From positions 1 to 8,401 of the forward strand of contig JAACEU010000017.1 of assembly GCA_011682355.1 (NCBI GenBank): a stretch of DNA of 8,401 bases, given 5' to 3'. The notes beneath the pieces are model-generated. The model was not told where the DNA came from. It saw only the letters and a program-made list of their open reading frames with translations, and did not search any database. This document shows, piece after piece, positions 1 to 8,401 of the stretch. Each line of letters opens with the position of its first letter. Position 1 is the first letter of the stretch. The stretch is from Nitrospirota bacterium (lineage in GTDB: Bacteria; Patescibacteriota; Gracilibacteria; UBA1369; LOWO2-01-FULL-3). The position numbers and the translations under genes were made by a program.

Positions 1-66
1 TAATGGCAAAAACAATGCAATAAACAATACACCAACCAAAACTCTACTTTTCAAAAGAATTCTCAT
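1..66 (-). CDS. N-terminal fragment of a membrane or secreted protein (cut by left edge)
   Basis: On the minus strand an ATG at 66-64 opens a frame that stays open to the window edge and gives 22 residues. The start reads MRILLKSRVLVGVLF and continues with a hydrophobic run ending in FLPL. Basic residues followed by a hydrophobic stretch are typical of a signal peptide or first membrane helix, so the protein is probably exported or membrane-anchored. No family can be named from so little sequence. Support for the start comes from a strong extended -10 box (TGG-TATAAT) 22 bases upstream on the same strand. There is no clear Shine-Dalgarno sequence. The gene diverges from der. Confidence 0.55.
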   Translation of the reverse strand, partial: MRILLKSRVLVGVLFIALFLPL

Positions 67-88
67 ATCTATATTTATTTTCTCGTAT

Positions 89-117
89 ATTATACCACAA
101 AGGCTTGCTCTTTTACA
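89..117 (-). promoter_or_regulatory. Promoter of the left-edge minus-strand gene
   Basis: Read on the minus strand, a perfect TATAAT (94-89) is preceded by TGG, giving an extended -10 element. A weak -35 hexamer TGTAAA (117-112) lies 17 bases further upstream. The predicted transcription start near 82 leaves a leader of about 16 bases before the ATG at 66. The element overlaps the promoter proposed for der, so the two may compete for RNA polymerase. Confidence 0.55.
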
Positions 118-132
118 CTCTTGATATATAAT
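105..132 (+). promoter_or_regulatory. Promoter of der
   Basis: A perfect TATAAT lies at 127-132, with a partial -35 TTGCTC at 105-110 and a 16-base spacer. Transcription would begin near 139. This rules out the in-frame TTG at 121 as the der start and supports the ATG at 157, giving a leader of about 18 bases. It interleaves with the oppositely directed promoter at 89-117. Confidence 0.5.
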
Positions 133-156
133 CGTTCTACCTTTAACAAGCTAAAA

Positions 157-1515
157 ATGGACCCCTCGCCGACAATCGCGATAGTTGGGCGACCAAATGT
201 AGGAAAATCAACTCTTTTCAATAGATTAATTGGAAAACGTTACGCCGTAATTGCTGAAGAAGCCGGAACTACTCGTGACAGAATTTCACATAAAGTCGAC
301 ATTGACGATTACGAAATACTGCTAGTGGACACCGGCGGAATTCAACATGGAGCACAAGAAAACATAGAGGAAGACGTTCAAACACAGGCCAAAATCGCAA
401 TCGAAGAAGCTGATGTGACCATTTTTGTTATAAATTCTATGCAGGATATGACCGTAGATGATTTTGCCGCCGCCGACATTTTAAGAAAATCCAAAAAACC
501 TATAATTTTGGTTGCAAATAAATGCGACAATCCGGGAATGGAAGCAAACATATATAACACATACGAACTGGGATTTGGCGAACCAATAGCCATATCAGCA
601 ATTCACAAAATAGGAATGGAAAATCTCCAAAATGAAATTCTGAAAACTATAAAAAAATTAAAATTCAAAAAACCAACGAAAAGTAAGGCAAACATCAAAA
701 AAAAGATCACAAACATTTGCTTGTTAGGAAGACCAAACGCAGGAAAATCATCTTTAATAAATGCTTTAATTGATGATCCCCAAAAATTGATCGTTTCTGA
801 AATCCCCGGAACCACCAGAGATTCCACCGACACGGAATTGATATATAAAGATAATAAATACAATTTAATCGATACAGCGGGAATTAGACGTCCCGGAAAA
901 ATATCACGCGGAATCGAAAAATTCAGTGTACTTAGAGGTTTTCAATCAATTGAAAGGTCTGATGTTGTAGTTTTACTCATAGATGGTAATGAAAGAATTG
1001 CGTCTCAAGACTGTAGCATCGCCAGTCATGCGCTCGAAGCTGAAAAAGGACTTATAATTGCGGTTAATAAAATCGACTTACTAGAGAGTGGAGAAGAGCA
1101 TAGAGAAAGATTATTGAGAATACTAAAAAAGAAATTCCCATTTGTCCCATGGGCACCTGTAGTTTTCATATCAGCAAAAAACAAGAAAAATACATATGAA
1201 ATACTCAATATCTCTGACCAAATAATGAAAGAAAGAGAAAAACGTATACAAACTGCTGAACTAAATTCTTTTTTACAAAAAATCACATTTAAACACAAAC
1301 CGGCCAGCACAAAAATCAAAAAGCCAAAATTTATGTACGCCAGCCAAGTCGACATAAATCCACCAAAATTCGTTCTATTTTTCAAAAACGCTTCAGTTCT
1401 CCACTTCTCATACCCCCGCTATCTCGAAAACAATATTCGAGCAGAATACGGCTTCAACGGAACTCCAATTCATCTAAAAATCAGAGGCAAAGCCGAAGAG
1501 GAGCAAAAGGATTAA
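157..1515 (+). CDS. der: Ribosome biogenesis GTPase Der (EngA), double-GTPase
   Basis: Der is an essential cytoplasmic GTPase with two tandem G domains that acts in assembly of the large (50S) ribosomal subunit. The 452-residue product shows the complete architecture. G domain 1 has the P-loop GRPNVGKS (11-18), GTTRDR (37-42), DTGG (58-61), NKCD (121-124) and an SA motif near 147. A basic linker (about 165-185) follows. G domain 2 has GRPNAGKS (191-198), GTTRDS (218-223), DTAG (239-242), NKID (304-307) and SA (339-340). The C-terminal KH-like domain (about 365-445) carries the SYPRYLENN and GTPIHL signatures. Length is normal for the family. I chose the ATG at 157 over the in-frame TTG at 121 because TATAAT at 127-132 lies within any longer reading and Der proteins usually begin just before the first G domain. 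No strong Shine-Dalgarno sequence is visible. It ends 13 bases from a convergent gene, with no obvious terminator between. Confidence 0.97.
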   Translation: MDPSPTIAIVGRPNVGKSTLFNRLIGKRYAVIAEEAGTTRDRISHKVDIDDYEILLVDTGGIQHGAQENIEEDVQTQAKIAIEEADVTIFVINSMQDMTVDDFAAADILRKSKKPIILVANKCDNPGMEANIYNTYELGFGEPIAISAIHKIGMENLQNEILKTIKKLKFKKPTKSKANIKKKITNICLLGRPNAGKSSLINALIDDPQKLIVSEIPGTTRDSTDTELIYKDNKYNLIDTAGIRRPGKISRGIEKFSVLRGFQSIERSDVVVLLIDGNERIASQDCSIASHALEAEKGLIIAVNKIDLLESGEEHRERLLRILKKKFPFVPWAPVVFISAKNKKNTYEILNISDQIMKEREKRIQTAELNSFLQKITFKHKPASTKIKKPKFMYASQVDINPPKFVLFFKNASVLHFSYPRYLENNIRAEYGFNGTPIHLKIRGKAEEEQKD

Positions 1516-1528
1516 AAAGGCAAATCAC

Positions 1529-1870
1529 TTATTGTTGAGCGCTTGAGGTGGCTACTTTAATAGCAGCAATTACCTTATCTAGGGCTTCTTGATTAATAAC
1601 CCGTACATCATACTCTGCCTGATTACCATTTAGAGTGTATTCATGGGTTTCGGTTCCTACAATCGCAAACTGAAGCGTGTCCCCTATATCCTTTGCTTTT
1701 TCTGGATCCAAGACAGGATAATTCAACGCAGTTTGTCCAATCTCCTGTCTTAGACTCTCTATTGCCGAATCTAAAACTCGATAATACTTCTCATATTGTC
1801 GGTGTCCCTTTAATGCAAGAACTCCATCGAGGACGGTCTCTACTGATACATTTCCTTCTGGATTAGCCAT
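1529..1870 (-). CDS. Hypothetical protein, 113 residues, unknown function
   Basis: I do not recognise this protein. The ATG at 1870-1868 starts a 113-residue frame ending in TAA. It has no signal peptide, membrane segment or cysteine, so a soluble cytoplasmic protein is likely. The first half looks helical (about 10-50, including YEKYYRVLDSAIESLRQEIG). The middle has strand-like stretches (about 65-95, with LQFAIVG and EYDVRVIN), and a final helix (about 94-108) leads into a polar tail, SSAQQ. The start is supported by a -35 TTGACA at 1935-1930 on the same strand. There is no Shine-Dalgarno sequence directly upstream. It converges on der with a 13-base gap and diverges from the ribbon-helix-helix gene. 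The open frame, promoter and balanced amino-acid composition make it a probable real gene. Confidence 0.7.
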   Translation of the reverse strand: MANPEGNVSVETVLDGVLALKGHRQYEKYYRVLDSAIESLRQEIGQTALNYPVLDPEKAKDIGDTLQFAIVGTETHEYTLNGNQAEYDVRVINQEALDKVIAAIKVATSSAQQ

Positions 1871-1906
1871 GTGTGATTTGGTTAGCTTGATAAGTTGTTA
1901 GGGGTC

Positions 1907-1935
1907 AACGTAGCCATTTAATTTTATTTTGTCAA
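1907..1935 (-). promoter_or_regulatory. Promoter of the 113-residue gene
   Basis: On the minus strand a perfect -35 TTGACA (1935-1930) is followed after 17 bases by TACGTT (1912-1907), a poor -10 box that keeps the leading TA and final T. The leader would be about 30 bases. The -35 is preceded by CC, so the box CCTTGACA is identical to that of the divergent promoter at 2030-2058. Together the two boxes form a perfect 8-base inverted repeat (1930-1937 and 2028-2035). Confidence 0.4.
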
Positions 1936-2029
1936 GGTCTAGTTTTAAAGATAGAGAGGATTTATTTTATTTCGGCTAACTTGCCTCAAACCCCAAGGTC
2001 GTCATCCTTCCTATACCACAGGAATGTCC

Positions 2030-2058
2030 TTGACATAATGGCTTATGCATCATAAACT
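2030..2058 (+). promoter_or_regulatory. Promoter of the ribbon-helix-helix gene
   Basis: A consensus -35 TTGACA (2030-2035) is followed after 17 bases by TAAACT (2053-2058), which matches four of six -10 positions. Transcription would begin near 2065, leaving a leader of about 70 bases, much longer than others in this window. Part of that leader could fold (GGTTG near 2089 with CAACC near 2113), which may be chance. Confidence 0.5.
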
Positions 2059-2125
2059 CAAACACTTCTGTCATTCATTTGATCGGCAGGGTTGAAGTAT
2101 AAAGTCGGAAAACAACCACCAAGAA

Positions 2126-2131
2126 AGAAGG
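2126..2131 (+). promoter_or_regulatory. Strong Shine-Dalgarno site that fixes a GTG start
   Basis: AGAAGG, continuing into TG, lies six bases before the GTG at 2138. An in-frame TGA at 2132-2134 excludes any earlier start, so site and codon decide the start together. It is the only clear Shine-Dalgarno sequence I find in the window. Confidence 0.7.
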
Positions 2132-2137
2132 TGAATA

Positions 2138-2359
2138 GTGAGCAGACAAGGTCGCCCAAACAGAAAGAAGTCCGGAAGAGAAACACAAAGGGTCACGACA
2201 ATTTTGGATGCCGAAGTGCACGACATCCTGGGACTCATGGCAGCCACGGGAAACTTATCGTTTGGCGAAATCATAGACAGTCTCGTCAAACAAAGCCCAA
2301 AGTACAAGACATGGAAGTCCATTCTTGACGCGACCAAAAAAGCACACGCCTCCGAATAA
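2138..2359 (+). CDS. Small ribbon-helix-helix DNA-binding protein (putative antitoxin or repressor)
   Basis: The 73-residue product has a basic N-terminal arm (about 1-17, rich in Arg, Lys and Gln). It is followed by a segment that fits the MetJ/Arc ribbon-helix-helix fold: strand RVTTILD (18-24), helix A (25-38), turn, and helix B starting at SFGEIIDSLV (41-50). Such proteins form dimers whose paired strands read DNA, and they serve as plasmid, phage or toxin-antitoxin regulators. The basic arm probably contacts DNA; this assignment rests on pattern only. The GTG start is fixed by a strong Shine-Dalgarno site and an in-frame stop just upstream. No toxin partner lies beside it: the downstream gene is convergent and the upstream one divergent. 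A hand count gives about 49% GC (108 of 222), above most neighbouring coding sequence. With the distinct translation signal this suggests acquisition from elsewhere. It may repress its own promoter and its neighbour's. Confidence 0.7.
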   Translation: MSRQGRPNRKKSGRETQRVTTILDAEVHDILGLMAATGNLSFGEIIDSLVKQSPKYKTWKSILDATKKAHASE

Positions 2360-2377
2360 ACCCACTTCAACACCTGC

Positions 2378-2423
2378 CTGTCGTTCTGACAGAAACATCC
2401 GCAGCCATACCTCTGGCTGCGGA
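2378..2423. terminator. Paired hairpins between convergent genes, possible two-way terminator
   Basis: Two inverted repeats lie between the ends of the ribbon-helix-helix gene and the nucleotidyltransferase gene. The first is CTGTC-GTTCT-GACAG (2378-2392). The second is a perfect 10-base stem, TCCGCAGCCA (2398-2407) with TGGCTGCGGA (2414-2423), around a 6-base loop. The second is GC-rich and would fold in RNA from either strand, as expected between convergent genes. Neither is followed by a proper run of U on either strand, so intrinsic termination is uncertain. The stems could instead protect 3' ends. Confidence 0.5.
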
Positions 2424-2430
2424 CTTCTAA

Positions 2431-3147
2431 TCAAACCCCCAAAAACTTTTCCAAATCCAACTTTTCCTCCACTCCATACTTATCAAACCATTTTTTTCTG
2501 TACTCCCGCCTCCTGTCCACATTATGGAATTTCAAAATATGATCTTCCACTATCAAACTCGCGATTTCCATATCCACAACTTCCATCTTTTCTTTTGCCC
2601 TCCTCATCTGCCATTTTTTCAAAATAGCTTCAACACGATTCCCAAACCACCCTCCCAACATCCACCCAAAAAGCCGATTCAAAATTCCACCACTTTCAAC
2701 AACCTTACTTCTATCTATCTCAAAATCCTCCTCAAAATTTCGCCTCACCCAACTATTCACCCTCAAAAATTCCTCAGAAACACCATCATCAACAACCGGA
2801 ACCATTGTCCTAACCCAAAAAGCTAAATAAATATCATTATCAATCGCAATTTTTCGCATATCCATGCCATCTTCATCAACAAAGAAACTCAAGCAAAATC
2901 TGCCGGCAACCTTTTCACCATGCCTGCGAACCCCCAAAATGTGCAACAAAAAAGTCACAAAAATCCTTACGATAAAAAGACGACCCTTCTTGGCAATAAT
3001 AAAAAGATCAATATCACTATTCCCATCAACTTTTCCAAAAGCCAAATTATTACAAACCGCCACCATCCGCAAAAACGGAACCATCCGCAAAATACAAACA
3101 TACTTTTCTGCCTTTTTCCACAACTTTTTTTCTATTTCACTATTCAT
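2431..3147 (-). CDS. Pol-beta superfamily nucleotidyltransferase domain protein
   Basis: The 238-residue product carries the nucleotidyltransferase core near its N-terminus. NLAFGK (34-39) leads into GNSDIDLFII (42-51), with metal-binding Asp45 and Asp47 in the hG...DxD arrangement. A third acidic residue probably comes from the next strand region, FCLSFFVDEDG (84-94). The usual Gly-Ser pair before DxD is replaced by NNLAFG, a divergence I associate with uncharacterised Patescibacteria homologues. Residues 57-72 are hydrophobic, but flanking charges and family resemblance suggest a buried helix rather than a membrane anchor. The C-terminal half is helical and basic (about 165-225). Proteins of this superfamily transfer nucleotides to small molecules, RNA or proteins; the substrate here cannot be deduced. 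The stop is TGA, followed after seven bases by a GC-rich hairpin. A -10 box TATACT ends eight bases before the ATG, so the mRNA may be almost leaderless. Confidence 0.8.
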   Translation of the reverse strand: MNSEIEKKLWKKAEKYVCILRMVPFLRMVAVCNNLAFGKVDGNSDIDLFIIAKKGRLFIVRIFVTFLLHILGVRRHGEKVAGRFCLSFFVDEDGMDMRKIAIDNDIYLAFWVRTMVPVVDDGVSEEFLRVNSWVRRNFEEDFEIDRSKVVESGGILNRLFGWMLGGWFGNRVEAILKKWQMRRAKEKMEVVDMEIASLIVEDHILKFHNVDRRREYRKKWFDKYGVEEKLDLEKFLGV

Positions 3148-3155
3148 ACTGGAAA

Positions 3156-3163
3156 AGTATACT
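3156..3163. promoter_or_regulatory. Palindromic -10 box shared by the nucleotidyltransferase gene and uvrC
   Basis: AGTATACT is a perfect palindrome, so TATACT reads on both strands (3158-3163 plus, 3161-3156 minus). On the minus strand, TTGTGC (3183-3178) at a 16-base spacing is a weak -35, and transcription would start about two bases before the nucleotidyltransferase ATG. On the plus strand transcription would start near 3170, before the uvrC ATG at 3188; no good -35 is visible on that side. One symmetric element may therefore fire in both directions. Confidence 0.45.
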
Positions 3164-3187
3164 ATTTAAGCCACATTGCACAATACT

Positions 3188-5272
3188 ATGAAGGTAAATA
3201 AGAAAATCAAAAAGATTTTAGGCGACTTGCCACACAGTCCCGGAGTCTACAGAATGCTCAACGACAAAAAGGAGATTATTTATATCGGAAAGGCAAAAGA
3301 TCTGAGCAAGCGCGTTAGACAATATTTTCAAAAACAAAATCACACTCTGAAAACTCAAAAGCTCCTGGAAAAAGTTGTAGACATCAAATTCACAGCCGTT
3401 GACAGCGATCTGGAAGCGATTCTTCTTGAAACAACTTTGATCAAAAAGCACAAACCGAAATACAACGTTTTGATGAAAGACGGAAAAAATTATGTTTACA
3501 TCAAGATCACTGACGAAGATTTTCCACGTATTCTGATCGTAAGAAAGGTCGAGAAAGACGGAGCCAAATATTTTGGTCCAAAAAGTGCGGCAAATAAGGT
3601 AAAAGAAACGTTTAAGGTCTTGAAAAAGATTCTCCCGTTCAGACATTGTTCGCTCGACATCAAATCTCTTGGCGACAAAAAGGTGGAAGTAACAAGAAAA
3701 ACAATCAAATATCCATGTCTCGATTATTATATAAAAAAATGTGCTGCTCCATGCATAGGAAAGTGCACGAAAAACGAATATCGGCAAATCATCAAGAATG
3801 TAGAAAATTTCCTCAAGGGAAAAGCCAACGACATCCTCGCATCACTTAATGAAGAAATGCAAATGTGGGCACAAACAAAAGAGTTTGAAAAAGCGGGAAA
3901 GGTAAGAGACAAAATTCAAAAAATCAAAAATATACTCGAAAGACAAAAAGTTTCAGACCCGAATCAAACAGACAAAGATATTATTAATTACTGCGTCATT
4001 CACGAAAAGGCATATTTCAATTTATTCCAAATTCGTGATGGCAAACTGATAAATCAGGAAAATTTTATACTTTCCGCCAAACACGCAGACTCGGAAGAAA
4101 ATCAAGAAATCCTGGAGTCTTTTGCTAATCAGTACTATCAACTGGCAACAGACATTCCAAAAGAAATCCTAATACCTCATAAAATAGAAAATGCCACAGC
4201 ACTCAGCAAAATCATCAAATCCAAATTCGTAATTCCAAAAATCGGCACAAAAAACAAACTCCTGGAAATGAGCCTAAAAAATGCCCAAATATATGCCGAC
4301 AGAAACAAACCAAGTTGGGAAACAGAAAGCAAACTAACAGAAAAAGCAGTAAAAGATCTCCAAAAAATCTTAAAATTCAAAACCCCGCTCAAAAGAATCG
4401 AATGCTACGACATTTCACACCTCAGCGGAACAGACACAGTAGGGTCGATGGTCGTTTTCATCAAAGGAGTTCCGGACAAATCCATGTATAGAAAATTCAG
4501 ACTCAGAACGGTCGAAGGAAAACCCGACGATTACAAATCACTGGAAGAAGTCCTCACCAGAAGACTCCTGAAAATCACCAAAGAAATAGAATTCAAAGAC
4601 TTCGTTTTCAAAAAAGCCCGCAAAAAAGACAAAGAATTCATTGAAAAACACAACAAAGTAGACGTAGAAAAGTCCGACAAACAGTTCTTCATTCTGGAAA
4701 AAAACAAAAAAGTAAAAGGGTTTATAGCAATCCACGAACAATCCAAAAAAGTTTCAGAAATAACCAACCTCTTCGTCCTAAAATCCGAAAGAGGCAAAAA
4801 ACTCGGATACAAACTCGTAAAAAGTGCTATAGAGAAAGCAAAATCAAAACGTGTCTACGGCTTATGCAAAAAAGAACTCCTCGAATATTACCAACTTTTC
4901 GGATTTGAAGAAGTCAAAAAAACGCCGGACGAGCTACTCAACAAAAAGAACCACATTTGCATCGTCTACGACAAGCTAAAACATAAACCCGACAAATCAT
5001 TCACCCAAATACCGGACCTCATAGTAATTGATGGAGGAAGAGGACAGCTCTCTGCCGGAACAAAAGTTCTCAAAAAATTAAATCTCAAAATCCCATACAT
5101 ATCTTTAGCTAAAAAACTTGAAGAAATTTTCACCCCGGAAAGAAAAACACCAATCATCCTCGAAAAAAACAACGATGCACTAAAACTCCTCCAACGCGCC
5201 CGAGATGAGGCACACAGATTTGCCATCAGCTATAACCAAAACCTAAGAACCAAAAGACTCAAAACTTTATAA
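3188..5272 (+). CDS. uvrC: Excinuclease subunit UvrC with inserted GNAT domain and no C-terminal helix-hairpin-helix
   Basis: UvrC is the dual-incision nuclease of UvrABC nucleotide excision repair. In this 694-residue protein the N-terminal GIY-YIG nuclease (about 12-95) has GVY (19-21), YIG (32-34), Lys35, Arg42 and Glu81, matching the catalytic set. A cysteine region follows: Cys154, Cys177, Cys185, Cys189 and Cys193. The last pattern resembles the iron-sulfur cysteines reported for E. coli UvrC. The UVR (UvrB-binding) motif is about 221-255. The C-terminal RNase H-like nuclease keeps Asp408 (YDISH), Asp615 (IDGG) and His676 (RDEAHRF). Asp408 and Asp615 are 207 residues apart, against roughly 62-67 in characterised UvrC, because a GNAT domain (about 467-598) is inserted between them. 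The protein stops at RTKRLKTL, where the tandem helix-hairpin-helix normally begins. I prefer the ATG at 3188 to an in-frame TTG at 3176. The 3' end overlaps thiI by 14 bases. Repair function is probably retained; the role of the insert is unknown. Confidence 0.95.
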   Translation: MKVNKKIKKILGDLPHSPGVYRMLNDKKEIIYIGKAKDLSKRVRQYFQKQNHTLKTQKLLEKVVDIKFTAVDSDLEAILLETTLIKKHKPKYNVLMKDGKNYVYIKITDEDFPRILIVRKVEKDGAKYFGPKSAANKVKETFKVLKKILPFRHCSLDIKSLGDKKVEVTRKTIKYPCLDYYIKKCAAPCIGKCTKNEYRQIIKNVENFLKGKANDILASLNEEMQMWAQTKEFEKAGKVRDKIQKIKNILERQKVSDPNQTDKDIINYCVIHEKAYFNLFQIRDGKLINQENFILSAKHADSEENQEILESFANQYYQLATDIPKEILIPHKIENATALSKIIKSKFVIPKIGTKNKLLEMSLKNAQIYADRNKPSWETESKLTEKAVKDLQKILKFKTPLKRIECYDISHLSGTDTVGSMVVFIKGVPDKSMYRKFRLRTVEGKPDDYKSLEEVLTRRLLKITKEIEFKDFVFKKARKKDKEFIEKHNKVDVEKSDKQFFILEKNKKVKGFIAIHEQSKKVSEITNLFVLKSERGKKLGYKLVKSAIEKAKSKRVYGLCKKELLEYYQLFGFEEVKKTPDELLNKKNHICIVYDKLKHKPDKSFTQIPDLIVIDGGRGQLSAGTKVLKKLNLKIPYISLAKKLEEIFTPERKTPIILEKNNDALKLLQRARDEAHRFAISYNQNLRTKRLKTL
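4586..4981 (+). other. GNAT acetyltransferase-like domain inserted within UvrC
   Basis: Residues about 467-598 of UvrC do not belong to the nuclease fold and read as a whole GNAT N-acetyltransferase-like domain. It opens with FKKARKKDKEFIEKH, followed by the strand VKGFIAI. Next comes the acetyl-CoA motif A region, ITNLFVLKSERGKKLGYKLV, where Arg535 to Gly540 would contact the cofactor pyrophosphate. The end has YYQLFGFEEV (567-576), the usual motif B. The consensus R-x-x-G-x-G/A is changed: Lys538 replaces the first glycine and Tyr541 follows Gly540, so cofactor binding is not assured. The reading frame runs through without a stop, and base composition matches the flanking uvrC sequence, which argues against a recent insertion or an assembly join. 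Confidence 0.8.
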
Positions 5273-6431
5273 CCTCACCTTCTTCAATAGCACTAACAAT
5301 CCAATCGCCAATTGGTAAATGTTCTTCGATCTTGTGCAAATCGTAAATATTCGCTTTCAATTCCGGATGCTTGGGCATAAACATACTGCAACTATCCTTA
5401 CACGGAAGCTTGGAAATATCAAAAGTTCCAATTTTTTCAGCTATCTTAATAATATCCTCCTTATCTAATGATATAAGTGGGTGAAACAATGGAATAGAAG
5501 TTGCCTCATGAATCGCAAACATATTTTCCGAAGTTTGTGAGGCGACTTGACCATAATTATCTCCGGTAATTAAACCTTTAGCCCTTTCCTTTTTGGCAAT
5601 ACTCTCAGCAATTCGCAACATCAATCTACGATACAAAACTGTTCTTATCTTTGCCGGAACGTCGGGATTTACAGCAATCTTTTTTTGTATTTCCCCAAAA
5701 GGAACCAAGTACATTTTTGTATCAAATTGATATTTGCTCAAAATCTCAACAATTTCCTTGGATTGATGCATTTCATCCTTGTCCGTATATGGATATCCAT
5801 GAAAATGAACAAATATCACTCTTGCACCTCGCCTCATCATTTGAAAAGAAGCAACAGGGGAGTCAATGCCGGAAGAAATCAAAGACACCAGCTTTCCCTG
5901 GCTATTCGAAGGCATCCCAGCCTGACCTTTGTAAGTATTGTATGAAAAATATCCAATATCGTTAAATAACTCAATATCCACTATAAATTCCGGATTCTTC
6001 AGTTTAACTTTCATATCAATCCCATTATTCAACATAAGCGCACCAATCTCCCTCTCCGCCTCAGCGGATTTATACGGCAAATTCATGGACCTTTTTATTT
6101 TTATTCGAAAATTACTCGGCCTCACTTCAAATTTTGGCAAATTATCCCATGCTTGTGCCCCAAGTTTATCTATTTTCGTACTACCAACATAAGTAAATTT
6201 AAAATTCTTTATACCAAAAATCTTTCGCAATACATCAACATACTCCTCTTCGTTAAACTTTTCCGGTAGCTCAATAAGAAGCCTGCCCAAGGTATATTTT
6301 ATCGAAAAAGTCTTCCTAAATCTCTTCTCCAATCTCATTTTCATACTCTTTCTCAGCTTCTTCACAAAATACTCTTTATTCGCTCCTTTTAGACCAATTT
6401 CTCCGTAATGTACAATTAAAACACGTTTCAT
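5259..6431 (-). CDS. thiI: tRNA uracil 4-sulfurtransferase ThiI, form without rhodanese domain
   Basis: ThiI adenylates and thiolates uridine 8 of tRNA to 4-thiouridine, a near-UV sensor, and in some bacteria also serves thiamine thiazole synthesis. The 390 residues give the N-terminal ferredoxin-like region (about 1-60, starting MKRVLIVHYGEIGLKG), the THUMP RNA-binding domain (about 60-165) and the PP-loop ATP-pyrophosphatase domain (about 178-390). The PP-loop reads ISSGIDSPVA (185-194), with Ser187 where most relatives have Gly. TGDNYGQVASQTSEN (289-303) and LPCKDSCSMFMPKHP (342-356, Cys344 and Cys348) are further ThiI signatures. The rhodanese domain of the longer E. coli enzyme is absent, as in many bacterial ThiI proteins, so sulfur transfer must use these cysteines or a partner. 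The stop is TGA and overlaps the uvrC end. A -10 TATAAT nine bases before the ATG suggests a nearly leaderless mRNA, although read-through from the upstream 86-residue gene is also possible. Confidence 0.93.
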   Translation of the reverse strand: MKRVLIVHYGEIGLKGANKEYFVKKLRKSMKMRLEKRFRKTFSIKYTLGRLLIELPEKFNEEEYVDVLRKIFGIKNFKFTYVGSTKIDKLGAQAWDNLPKFEVRPSNFRIKIKRSMNLPYKSAEAEREIGALMLNNGIDMKVKLKNPEFIVDIELFNDIGYFSYNTYKGQAGMPSNSQGKLVSLISSGIDSPVASFQMMRRGARVIFVHFHGYPYTDKDEMHQSKEIVEILSKYQFDTKMYLVPFGEIQKKIAVNPDVPAKIRTVLYRRLMLRIAESIAKKERAKGLITGDNYGQVASQTSENMFAIHEATSIPLFHPLISLDKEDIIKIAEKIGTFDISKLPCKDSCSMFMPKHPELKANIYDLHKIEEHLPIGDWIVSAIEEGEVIKF

Positions 6432-6440
6432 AACGTGCCG

Positions 6441-6469
6441 ATTATATCCTATTTACCCGGTAATAAAAG
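6441..6469 (-). promoter_or_regulatory. Promoter of thiI, near-leaderless
   Basis: A perfect TATAAT (6446-6441, minus strand) ends nine bases before the thiI ATG, so transcription should begin two to four bases before it. The -35 region CTTTTA at 17 bases is poor. The spacer contains the near-palindrome TTACC-C-GGTAA (6453-6463), which could be an operator or chance. It lies in the 44-base gap between the 86-residue gene and thiI. Confidence 0.5.
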
Positions 6470-6475
6470 AAAACT

Positions 6476-6736
6476 TTAAGCAATTCCCGAATCCACTTGA
6501 TCCTGACGCTCTTTACTCGCTTTGTTTAAATATGACTCTCTAGCCTCTTTATGCCTTTTTTCCAATGCCACCAACAAAAGAACTTTTGCCTTGTCAGGGT
6601 CTTTTTCTGCCATAACCTCTTTCTCATCTTCTTCTTCGATCAAACCCTTTTCAGCAAGCTCAGCGGATCTGTCATGATAATGCTTCAATTCATCTTTCAC
6701 TCCAACCTTTGATGGTACTTCTATTTTTTTGTCCAT
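6476..6736 (-). CDS. Small charged helical protein, 86 residues, unknown function
   Basis: I do not recognise this protein. It is 86 residues long, very rich in Glu, Lys and Asp, and almost certainly mostly helical. Two likely helices are about 12-48 (KDELKHYHDRSAELAEKG and the following EEEDEKEVMAEKD) and about 49-80 (DKAKVLLLVALEKRHKEARE). There is no cysteine, signal peptide or membrane segment, so it is probably cytoplasmic and may form a coiled coil or bind a partner. The start ATG (6736-6734) is supported by an extended -10 box (TGC-TATAAT) 22 bases upstream. No Shine-Dalgarno sequence is visible. It lies 44 bases upstream of thiI on the same strand and diverges from folP, so it might share a transcript with thiI. 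The steady frame and dedicated promoter make it a likely real gene. Confidence 0.7.
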   Translation of the reverse strand: MDKKIEVPSKVGVKDELKHYHDRSAELAEKGLIEEEDEKEVMAEKDPDKAKVLLLVALEKRHKEARESYLNKASKERQDQVDSGIA

Positions 6737-6758
6737 TTTTATATTTAATTATTAATAA

Positions 6759-6787
6759 ATTATAGCAAAAATCACCCAACATTGCTA
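6759..6787 (-). promoter_or_regulatory. Promoter of the 86-residue gene, interlocked with the folP promoter
   Basis: On the minus strand, TGC-TATAAT (6767-6759) is an extended consensus -10. TAGCAA (6787-6782) lies 17 bases upstream as a partial -35 that also forms part of the opposing folP -10 region. The predicted start near 6752 leaves a leader of about 16 bases. Confidence 0.55.
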
Positions 6788-6791
6788 GTAT
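6763..6791 (+). promoter_or_regulatory. Promoter of the folate operon, near-leaderless
   Basis: TGC-TAGTAT (6783-6791) is an extended -10 matching four of six core bases. TAGCAA (6763-6768) lies 17 bases upstream as a partial -35. The -10 ends nine bases before the folP ATG, so the leader would be two to four bases. TAGCAA (6763-6768) and TTGCTA (6782-6787) are perfect inverted copies. Each seems to serve one strand as its -35 and the other as the TGC-TA of its -10, so only one polymerase could occupy the site at a time. Confidence 0.5.
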
Positions 6792-6800
6792 CTCACCCGC

Positions 6801-7583
6801 ATGAAACACAAAAAACTACAAATAATGGGAATAATAAATGTCACGCCGGACTCCTTCAGCGACGGCGGAAAATTTCACACCCTCAAAAATGCAATAAAAA
6901 GAGCAAAAGAACTCGAAAAACAAGGGGCTAACATCCTCGATATAGGCGGAGAATCAACCGGTCCGGGCTCAAAAAACGTATCATTGGAAGAAGAATTAAA
7001 AAGAGTAATCCCAGTAATCAAGGAACTGCGAAAATCCACAAAACTTCCAATATCGATAGACACATACAAAGCCGAAGTGGCGCAACAAGCACTGGGTGCA
7101 GGCGCCAACATGGTAAACGACATAACCGCACTCAGAGGAGACCCAAAAATGGCATCAGTAATCAAAAAACACAAATGCCAAGTAATTTTGATGTACAGCA
7201 AAGATCCCACCCCAAGAACAACAATCAAAAAAAAGAAATACAAAGATGTTATCAAAACAATCAAAGATTTCCTCAAAAAACGAATCCAATACGCAAAAAA
7301 ACAAGGAATCTCAAACAATCAAATAATCATAGATCCCGGAATGGGACACTTCATAAGCGCATTACCGCAATACAGTTACGAAATAATTGCCAGATTGCAC
7401 GAATTTCACACATTGGGCTACCAAATTTTAATAGGAGCCTCACGAAAATCATTCTTGGGAGGATCTATGGAATCCAGAGTGGAAAAAGAAGCAGTTGTCT
7501 CTGCTATTGCATATAATGGGGGAGTAAGTATCATTAGAACCCACGATGTTAAACAAATCAAATGGCTAAAAAGTTTAAGCTAA
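6801..7583 (+). CDS. folP: Dihydropteroate synthase
   Basis: FolP joins 6-hydroxymethyl-7,8-dihydropterin diphosphate to p-aminobenzoate, forming 7,8-dihydropteroate; it is the sulfonamide target. The 260-residue protein is a TIM barrel of normal length, with motifs in order: INVTPDSFSDGG (12-23, Asn13), DIGGESTGPGS (47-57), SIDT (85-88, Asp87), NDI (106-108), IIIDPGMG (175-182, Asp178), GASRKSFLGG (212-221, Lys216) and RTHD (246-249). Two motifs are atypical. Gly54 stands where GGESTRPG enzymes have the loop-2 arginine, and the segment after Asp178 reads DPGMGHFIS, not DPGIGFGKT. I infer a divergent DHPS subfamily, not a loss of function, since the other active-site residues remain. It is the first gene of the operon: the promoter lies immediately upstream and the next gene begins 22 bases before the folP stop. 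Confidence 0.95.
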   Translation: MKHKKLQIMGIINVTPDSFSDGGKFHTLKNAIKRAKELEKQGANILDIGGESTGPGSKNVSLEEELKRVIPVIKELRKSTKLPISIDTYKAEVAQQALGAGANMVNDITALRGDPKMASVIKKHKCQVILMYSKDPTPRTTIKKKKYKDVIKTIKDFLKKRIQYAKKQGISNNQIIIDPGMGHFISALPQYSYEIIARLHEFHTLGYQILIGASRKSFLGGSMESRVEKEAVVSAIAYNGGVSIIRTHDVKQIKWLKSLS

Positions 7584-7915
7584 ACGTAAAATTCGACTTT
7601 GCGGCATCACATTTTCTCACCAAATATCACGGTAAATGTGAAAATTTACATGGACACAATTACAAACTCATAGTCACAATTGAAGACATCGTCAAAGATG
7701 ACGGCATGGTGATTGATTACAAAGAGATAAAAAAAACCGTAAACGAAAATGTCATAGATTTGGTAGATCACAAGCATCTAAATGATATTATTGAAAATCC
7801 ATCCAGCGAAAATATATTGATTTGGATGTGGGAAAAACTGAAAGAGAAGCTTCCGCTAATAAAATTAACTCTTTACGAAACTGAAAACTATTTTTGCGAA
7901 TATGAAGGAAAATAA
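7562..7915 (+). CDS. queD: 6-pyruvoyl-tetrahydropterin synthase / QueD family enzyme, likely serving folate synthesis
   Basis: The 117 residues have the T-fold pterin-binding signature of COG0720. Zinc ligands are His17, His30 and His32 (HGH at 30-32). The catalytic Cys26 has the QueD spacing (CxxxHGH). Asp69 and His70 form the usual dyad, and Glu106 in YETENY would anchor the pterin. Glu27 also gives ExxHGH, the signature of PTPS-III enzymes, which cleave dihydroneopterin triphosphate to 6-hydroxymethyl-dihydropterin and so replace FolB. The two known activities are therefore 6-carboxy-tetrahydropterin synthesis for queuosine and a folate bypass. Position between folP and folK, no folB, and no queC or queE in view favour the folate role. 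However, CENLHGH also occurs in ordinary QueD proteins, so sequence alone does not decide, and the symbol names the family only. The start ATG overlaps folP by 22 bases and the end overlaps folK by 14, suggesting translational coupling. Confidence 0.9.
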   Translation: MAKKFKLNVKFDFAASHFLTKYHGKCENLHGHNYKLIVTIEDIVKDDGMVIDYKEIKKTVNENVIDLVDHKHLNDIIENPSSENILIWMWEKLKEKLPLIKLTLYETENYFCEYEGK

Positions 7916-8318
7916 AGTTTTTATAGGAATCGGAACAAATGTAGGGGATAGAAGACAAAATATTGAAAATGCACTATTTGAAATTGGCAAAATAGCGTCT
8001 ATAAAGAAAAAATCTTCTATTCATGAAACAAAGCCTGTAGGATACAAAGATCAAGGAGATTTTTTTAACATGGCAATAGGAATAGAAACCGACCTAAAAC
8101 CAATTGATTTAATAATAAAACTTCAGGAAATTGAACACAAAATGGGGAGAGTTAGAGATATAAAAAACGGCCCCCGCATAATAGATCTCGATATTCTTAC
8201 TTATGGTAATGAAATAATAAACGAACCGGATTTGATAATTCCACACCCGAGAATGTTTGAACGAGACTTCGTAATGAAACCACTAAAAGAAATTACTGAT
8301 GATTTTAATAATCGATAA
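7902..8318 (+). CDS. folK: 2-amino-4-hydroxy-6-hydroxymethyldihydropteridine diphosphokinase (HPPK)
   Basis: FolK transfers pyrophosphate from ATP to 6-hydroxymethyl-7,8-dihydropterin, making the pterin substrate of FolP. The 138-residue protein has the full motif set: [13 protein letters not shown] (9-21, in place of the usual LGSNLGD), [15 protein letters not shown] (42-56), the ATP-binding region HKMGRVRD (79-86) with [10 protein letters not shown] (90-99), and [16 protein letters not shown] (113-128). Asp95 and Asp97 of the DLD are the two magnesium ligands. It is shorter than the 158-residue E. coli enzyme but complete at both ends. Its start lies inside the end of the PTPS gene (14-base overlap), and its last 20 bases overlap the pabA start, so expression is probably coupled across the operon. 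Confidence 0.95.
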
Positions 8319-8401
8319 TTACGATTCATTCACATACAACTTATTTCAACAAGTCGAGTCTCTTGGCAAAAAAGTCCAAGTTTTTAAACACGACAAAATT
8401 A
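8299..8401 (+). CDS. pabA: Glutamine amidotransferase of aminodeoxychorismate synthase (PabA/TrpG), cut by right edge
   Basis: An ATG at 8299 inside the end of folK opens a frame of 34 residues reaching the window edge. [18 protein letters not shown] is the hallmark N-terminus of class I glutamine amidotransferases paired with chorismate enzymes (PabA and TrpG). In a folate operon the natural role is PabA, which supplies ammonia so that PabB can convert chorismate to aminodeoxychorismate, the precursor of p-aminobenzoate used by FolP. TrpG (anthranilate synthase) cannot be excluded from this fragment, and one subunit serves both enzymes in some bacteria. The catalytic Cys-His-Glu triad lies beyond the window. 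The 20-base overlap with folK suggests coupled translation. Confidence 0.85.

Follow-up and report, generated by a model that had tools for sequence, protein, structure and literature searches.

A core component of excision repair in bacteria, UvrC is generally regarded as fixed in its domain layout, the first two catalytic aspartates of its RNase H domain standing 67 residues apart in Escherichia coli and 62 in Thermotoga maritima. Our subject is the uvrC gene of a draft genome deposited as a Nitrospirota bacterium and placed by GTDB among the Gracilibacteria (GCA_011682355.1); the window, meaning the whole stretch analyzed, comprises positions 1 to 8,401 of its contig JAACEU010000017.1. Both nuclease domains of the encoded protein match those of canonical UvrC (T. 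maritima C-terminal half, 2nrt; B. caldotenax GIY-YIG domain, 1yd6), the Asp/Asp/His residues are common to both, and the TIGR00194 equivalog model scores 486.6 bits against a curated cut-off of 285.45. Unlike canonical UvrC, however, the protein has no C-terminal helix-hairpin-helix and it holds a GNAT acetyltransferase-family domain of about 130 residues between its first two catalytic aspartates. Asp408 and Asp615 are 207 residues apart, exactly as an earlier note on this DNA had claimed, and its residue numbers fit the ATG at 3188. Among insert-free UvrCs, the spacing is 71-96 in the same class (15 of 178 genomes) and 62-81 in the 13 rows from families f25, f29, f33 and f34 ("class", "order" and "family" being the kinship grades of the search tool used). 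The features of the gene are as follows.

3188..5272, plus strand: uvrC, 694 residues from the ATG (TIGR00194)
3239..3466, plus strand: GIY-YIG nuclease domain (PF01541, 5.4e-13)
3833..3931, plus strand: UvrB/UvrC motif (PF02151, 9.9e-5, 22.4 bits, cut-off 21.5)
4361..4591, plus strand: RNase H endonuclease domain, first piece, positions 1-77 of PF08459, with catalytic Asp408 (4409-4411)
4586..4981, plus strand: inserted GNAT domain, residues 467-598 (PF00583, PF13673, PF13508; predicted models; fold matches)
4790..4807, plus strand: GNAT motif A, RGKKLG, residues 535-540, Lys538 fourth (sequence and alignment)
4886..4891, plus strand: Tyr567-Tyr568 (conservation of Tyr568 given below)
4901..4906, plus strand: Gly572-Phe573, end of motif B (conservation given below)
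4994..5227, plus strand: RNase H domain, second piece (PF08459), with Asp615 (5030-5032) and His676 (5213-5215)

It is certain that a GNAT-family domain sits within the RNase H domain of this UvrC; the domain is complete and both halves of the nuclease are intact, much as the earlier note had read them from the sequence. In a Pfam search of the whole protein, Acetyltransf_1 (2.6e-10; 41.0 bits, cut-off 20.7), Acetyltransf_10 (2.1e-9) and Acetyltransf_7 (1.4e-8) were recovered, and the GNAT models above cut-off fall between the two PF08459 pieces; the 136-residue insert segment alone yielded 1.5e-11. AlphaFold2 modeled the insert confidently both within the whole protein (predicted local distance difference test, pLDDT, 81-93 in its ten-residue blocks) and in isolation (pLDDT 92.3, predicted template modeling score 0.85), with predicted strands and helices spanning residues 473-595, and the predicted models and fold matches identify it as a GNAT fold. 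D408, D615 and H676 are invariant across 73 aligned UvrC rows and unchanged in insert carriers, their spatial arrangement being predicted. By fold, the insert is kin to the GNATs of the N-acetylglutamate synthase/ArgA type rather than a member of that group: it shares 21-24% identity with the GNAT half of these enzymes (2r8v, 5yge, 5yo2), but misses the corresponding NCBIfam cut-offs (PRK07757, 41.8 vs 154; PRK07922, 27 vs 180; PRK05279, 20.6 vs 344), and unlike the ArgA GNAT half it lies inserted in a nuclease. A weak match (E 0.016) was found to the glucosamine-6-phosphate acetyltransferase GNA1 (4ag7, from C. elegans), which has a lysine at the fourth place of motif A like the insert, although GNA1 is a free-standing enzyme.

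When examining the distribution of the insert, it is evident that the join with uvrC recurs in many genomes. A single-protein scan of genome contigs gave one locus only, and the spread was mapped instead by a search of related genomes, in which 57 of 60, among them the window's own, matched the window UvrC; most of these matches ran across the insert without a change of frame, as did that of G007, a genome in one contig. Furthermore, the insert is matched within proteins of UvrC length by 37 database entries, one of them the window's own. The window's genome is a draft of 153 contigs and 76% complete, which would leave room for an assembly or binning artefact fusing a GNAT gene to uvrC, but given this recurrence such an artefact is extremely improbable and we reject it. 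In-frame stops occur inside the UvrC matches L025, L017 and L060 (genomes G006, G025 and G010), perhaps as frame errors of drafts or in decaying copies.

The earlier note's proposal that the insertion be sought in other UvrCs is answered by its presence in much of the class: a model of the nuclease plus insert has a match in 276 of 288 class genomes. Among the matches listed, full or near-full spans occur within the order in f1-f4, f6, f8 (G259), f9, f10 and f12-f16, and beyond it in f17, f19, f20, f22, f24, f30, f31, f32 and four f21 genomes, while f25, f29 and f33 are represented by weak matches. Direct reading placed the insert in f5 and f7 as well, and found none in f18 and f28 or in the 13 rows of f25, f29, f33 and f34. 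The uvrC genes of these last four families contain an in-frame TGA in most genomes looked at. The insert site was classified in 178 genomes (184 loci entered, of which L052, L120, L141, L218 and L221 failed the pattern, with G084 entered twice), a non-random sample in which rows taken from the nuclease-plus-insert match list lean towards GNAT-like inserts and one genome, G325, lies beyond the class. There was no insert in 15, a domain of another family in 3, a second GNAT type in 5 and the main GNAT in 155, of which 8 rows (L058, L142, L143, L144, L146, L224, L225, L226) were counted by position only and miss E 0.01 with the A2-derived profile built from 30 sequences. Among the matches listed for 379 genomes sampled across the phylum, the sole full-span one beyond the class was G325; its GNAT-bearing UvrC (L229, family f52) could reflect either transfer or a misplaced genome. 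PF08459 matches 362 of these 379 genomes, and by hand reading of the matches listed, 317 of the 325 beyond the class are matched in one piece, which does not exclude an insert, since G036, G047 and G049 carry degenerate inserts and still give one-piece matches.

The GNAT domain is old in the class and has been inherited mainly alongside UvrC. This is shown by the correlation of core and insert distances (Mantel r 0.777 over 77 rows, 0.353 for between-family pairs) and by the nearest insert being in the same family for 57 of 69 rows. A phage origin of the insert was rejected, a phage collection yielding no match to it at E 1e-5. In genus g3 of f1, the cores of L013 and L014 are 94% identical and their inserts only 69%, while the inserts of L014 and L019 are 78% identical on cores that are 88% identical; recombination may have exchanged the insert here. 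Among 15 close pairs, the proportion of amino acid-changing differences in the insert (pN) is below that of silent differences (pS) in all 15, silent sites often being saturated, and insert pN is 0.25 or less in 13, with 0.48 for L039/L041 and 0.41 for L045/L049. In one pair with canonical motif A, L050/L051, the insert is held more tightly than the nuclease (pN 0.206 vs 0.25-0.28).

One of the key features of GNATs is motif A, with the consensus Q/R-x-x-G-x-G/A, which was correctly located by the earlier note at Arg535-Gly540, as was a motif B ending in GF. The window protein has Arg535 and Gly540, with Lys538 at the fourth place. Scoring the motif from one alignment as kept when Arg, Gln or Lys stands at 535 and Gly, Ala or Ser at 540, 105 of the 155 main-type inserts keep it and 50 have lost it (24 and 3, respectively, in the window's family f1). 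The earlier note had held that Lys538 leaves catalysis doubtful, a doubt that is eased, though not removed, because lysine is the commonest residue there among the keepers (Lys 60, Arg 16, Gly 12, His 8, others 9) and occupies the aligned place in the solved structures of C. elegans GNA1 (4ag7) and S. aureus 3d8p; for the same reasons, we reject Lys538 as proof of a dead enzyme. Tyr568 sits where the usual GNAT catalytic tyrosine stands, and residue 568 is Tyr in 101 of 105 keepers vs 20 of 50 losers, so that the pyrophosphate-binding loop for coenzyme A (CoA) and the tyrosine are retained jointly in about two thirds of sampled carriers. The end of motif B varies less with motif A, Gly572 being present in 103 of 105 copies with it and 48 of 50 without, and Phe or Tyr at 573 in 104 of 105 and 46 of 50. 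A tree built from UvrC outside the insert (107 rows; a quick tree with 26 open forks among 104 inner branches) requires at least 15 changes of state in motif A. Across 11 independent pairs, motif A and the tyrosine go together in 5.3 and apart in 0.0, which is suggestive of joint loss beyond relatedness. Judging from these residues, most insert copies are likely able to bind acetyl-CoA.

The kind of insert changes at least 10 times on the same 107-row tree. In our notation of loci (L), genomes (G) and families (f), family f21 has no insert in 10 of 17 rows and a second GNAT type at the same site in L115, L135, L136, L138 and L148 (Pfam being run on L115, L135 and L148). Also within f21, L110/L232 (G064) has a nucleotidyltransferase-like domain there (PF10706, 1.7e-6; no drug resistance is shown by a match to this profile, which is named "Aminoglyc_resit"), its tree neighbor L122 having no insert, and L137 (G115) has a DUF559 domain (PF04480, 1.1e-34). 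This DUF559 stretch (L230:623-1067) is flanked by inverted repeats of 34 nucleotides, 85% complementary and 377 nucleotides apart, and with DUF559 in frame inside uvrC, L137/L230 reads as a mobile cassette that became trapped within uvrC. Palindromic or miniature elements, among them those of Rickettsia, can integrate in frame within genes of bacteria, and the likeness lies in the in-frame landing within a coding gene and in the position of the DUF559 copy between inverted repeats. In f23, a serine-hydrolase domain occupies the site in L114/L231:159-2699 (G066; PF06821, 1e-11); a search of 5.8 billion proteins for a second UvrC of this type gave 1118 candidates, of which its own record alone was of the type. 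Each of these non-GNAT domains is known from a single draft genome. In f19, L131 and L133 retain only the C-terminal third of the GNAT and two further genomes have lost it, while L056 (G035, f7) appears by eye to hold two GNAT-like units in tandem, with an Asp-Asp spacing of 376. Because the same site is empty or filled by unrelated families in sister species, this core repair protein seems to own a slot for foreign parts, and a UvrC loop that accepts domains seems to be the wider finding.

Several inferences can be made regarding the role of the insert. We lean slightly towards a UvrC whose GNAT insert likely binds acetyl-CoA and is a predicted acetyltransferase, tethered to a nuclease that likely still works. 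According to the structure prediction, the insert departs from the end of a long helix and rejoins just ahead of the strand with the second Asp, and a self-folding domain could therefore be carried with the Asp/Asp/His site undisturbed. Selection for acetyl transfer would then result in the loop and the tyrosine being kept or lost together, and the simplest targets would be lysines, whether on UvrC or on its partners and the proteins bound to DNA around the lesion; insert copies may thus acetylate something there. In the 30 family genomes, UvrB was found in 26 (and not in the window's draft) and phosphotransacetylase in 26. A number of observations weigh against this reading: sister lineages manage without the GNAT domain, motif A is gone in 50 of 155 carriers, the window protein itself has Lys rather than Gly at the fourth place, the sign test for co-loss of motif A and Tyr gives a median p of 0.0625, and in 14 of the 15 close pairs insert pN exceeds that of the N-terminal half by a factor of 1.2 to 6.3. 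Furthermore, no sirtuin deacetylase exceeds the Pfam cut-off in any of the 30 family genomes (4 have weaker matches, the window's included), and dephospho-CoA kinase (CoaE) exceeds its cut-off in 15 of 30 and was not found in the window's incomplete genome. A link between this kinase and motif A in f1 was rejected, as G013 carries the kinase but not the motif, and the window's genome has the motif but yielded no kinase. The earlier note's suggestion that incision is coupled to lysine acetylation or acetyl-CoA status finds no support so far, as so many carriers have lost the CoA loop and kept their nuclease residues, sister lineages lack the domain or have another in its stead, and sirtuin is absent from the matches above cut-off. 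Incision most likely runs without the domain, since in many lineages the loop or the whole domain is gone or the site is taken by a different family.

Other readings stand beside the tethered acetyltransferase. A plug-in loop, into which two acetyltransferase kinds, a nucleotidyltransferase, a serine hydrolase and a DUF559 endonuclease-like cassette were taken up independently, some of them working, with bifunctional UvrCs acetylating proteins at the lesion, is an idea we hold only tentatively. Less likely than the tethered acetyltransferase is a repurposed, non-catalytic GNAT fold serving as a scaffold or as a module that contacts DNA, UvrB or the nuclease core, its acetyl-CoA binding being a vestige. 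Such a module would account for copies without motif A that keep Tyr, Phe or Trp at 557 (46 of 50), Gly572 and a basic residue at 555 (40 of 50), for the C-terminal thirds retained in f19, and for pairs without the motif in which insert pN is 0.48 (L039/L041), 0.41 (L045/L049) and 0.25 (L036/L054) vs 0.13-0.19 in the rest. However, conservation of GF in GNATs serves the fold as such, a scaffold would need neither motif A nor Tyr568, yet most carriers keep both, and L050/L051 holds its insert under tighter constraint than the rest of the protein. The contact module, which the earlier note had offered as its other idea, is possible above all for the degenerate copies. It is unlikely that the insert is simply a passenger, one of a series of foreign domains that land in a permissive loop, are kept for a while as harmless and then decay. 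The empty sites in 15 of 178 class genomes and the 13 further rows, the unrelated or second-type domains elsewhere, the repeats around DUF559, the repeated changes of insert type and the tandem units of L056 are all in keeping with a passenger, but retention of the main type through much of the class, pN below pS and the joint conservation of motif A and Tyr568 go beyond what a passenger would lead one to expect, and the non-GNAT domains occur in one genome each.

As to the remainder of the gene, the GIY-YIG and RNase H-like nuclease domains are both present (PF01541, PF22920, PF08459), and UvrCs 80 and 85% identical to the window's occur in two genomes of the same genus. The second PF08459 match covers 4889-5227, its start being trimmed by hand to the end of the insert (4994). 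The frame stays open upstream as far as a TTG at 3176, a start there giving a UvrC of 698 residues; our numbers follow the ATG at 3188, and numbering from the TTG runs 4 higher. Judged by tail length, the protein ends without a helix-hairpin-helix, 15 residues after its DEAHRFA stretch, compared with 10-26 in 27 f1 rows and 62-71 in rows keeping the helix-hairpin-helix; the f1 UvrC stops shortly past RNase H (window 5225-5272), having lost the tail in which other families of the class have a helix-hairpin-helix. This element is usual but not demanded by TIGR00194, and we do not take it as defining UvrC. Replacement of the lost helix-hairpin-helix by the GNAT was rejected, as f24, f22, f32 and three f19 rows have both motif A and a long tail, while f3 and f8 have neither. 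The neighbors of uvrC are ordinary by Pfam match (der, thiI, folP, a 6-pyruvoyl-tetrahydropterin synthase relative and folK). Three open frames on the minus strand (1529-1870, 2431-3147 and 6476-6736) have no Pfam match at E 0.001; that at 2431-3147 includes a GKVDGNSDIDLFI stretch and appears nucleotidyltransferase-like by eye.

In the open-licence literature, searched by titles and the starts of abstracts, we found no paper describing a GNAT domain within UvrC or a UvrC loop that takes up domains. Across much of the class, the catalytic fold of UvrC contains an additional domain of an enzyme family, whose decay, loss, doubling and replacement are all visible in present-day genomes. These genomes therefore provide a natural series for how a catalytic fold tolerates domain insertion, as well as a testable candidate for acetylation at DNA repair sites in bacteria with very small genomes.
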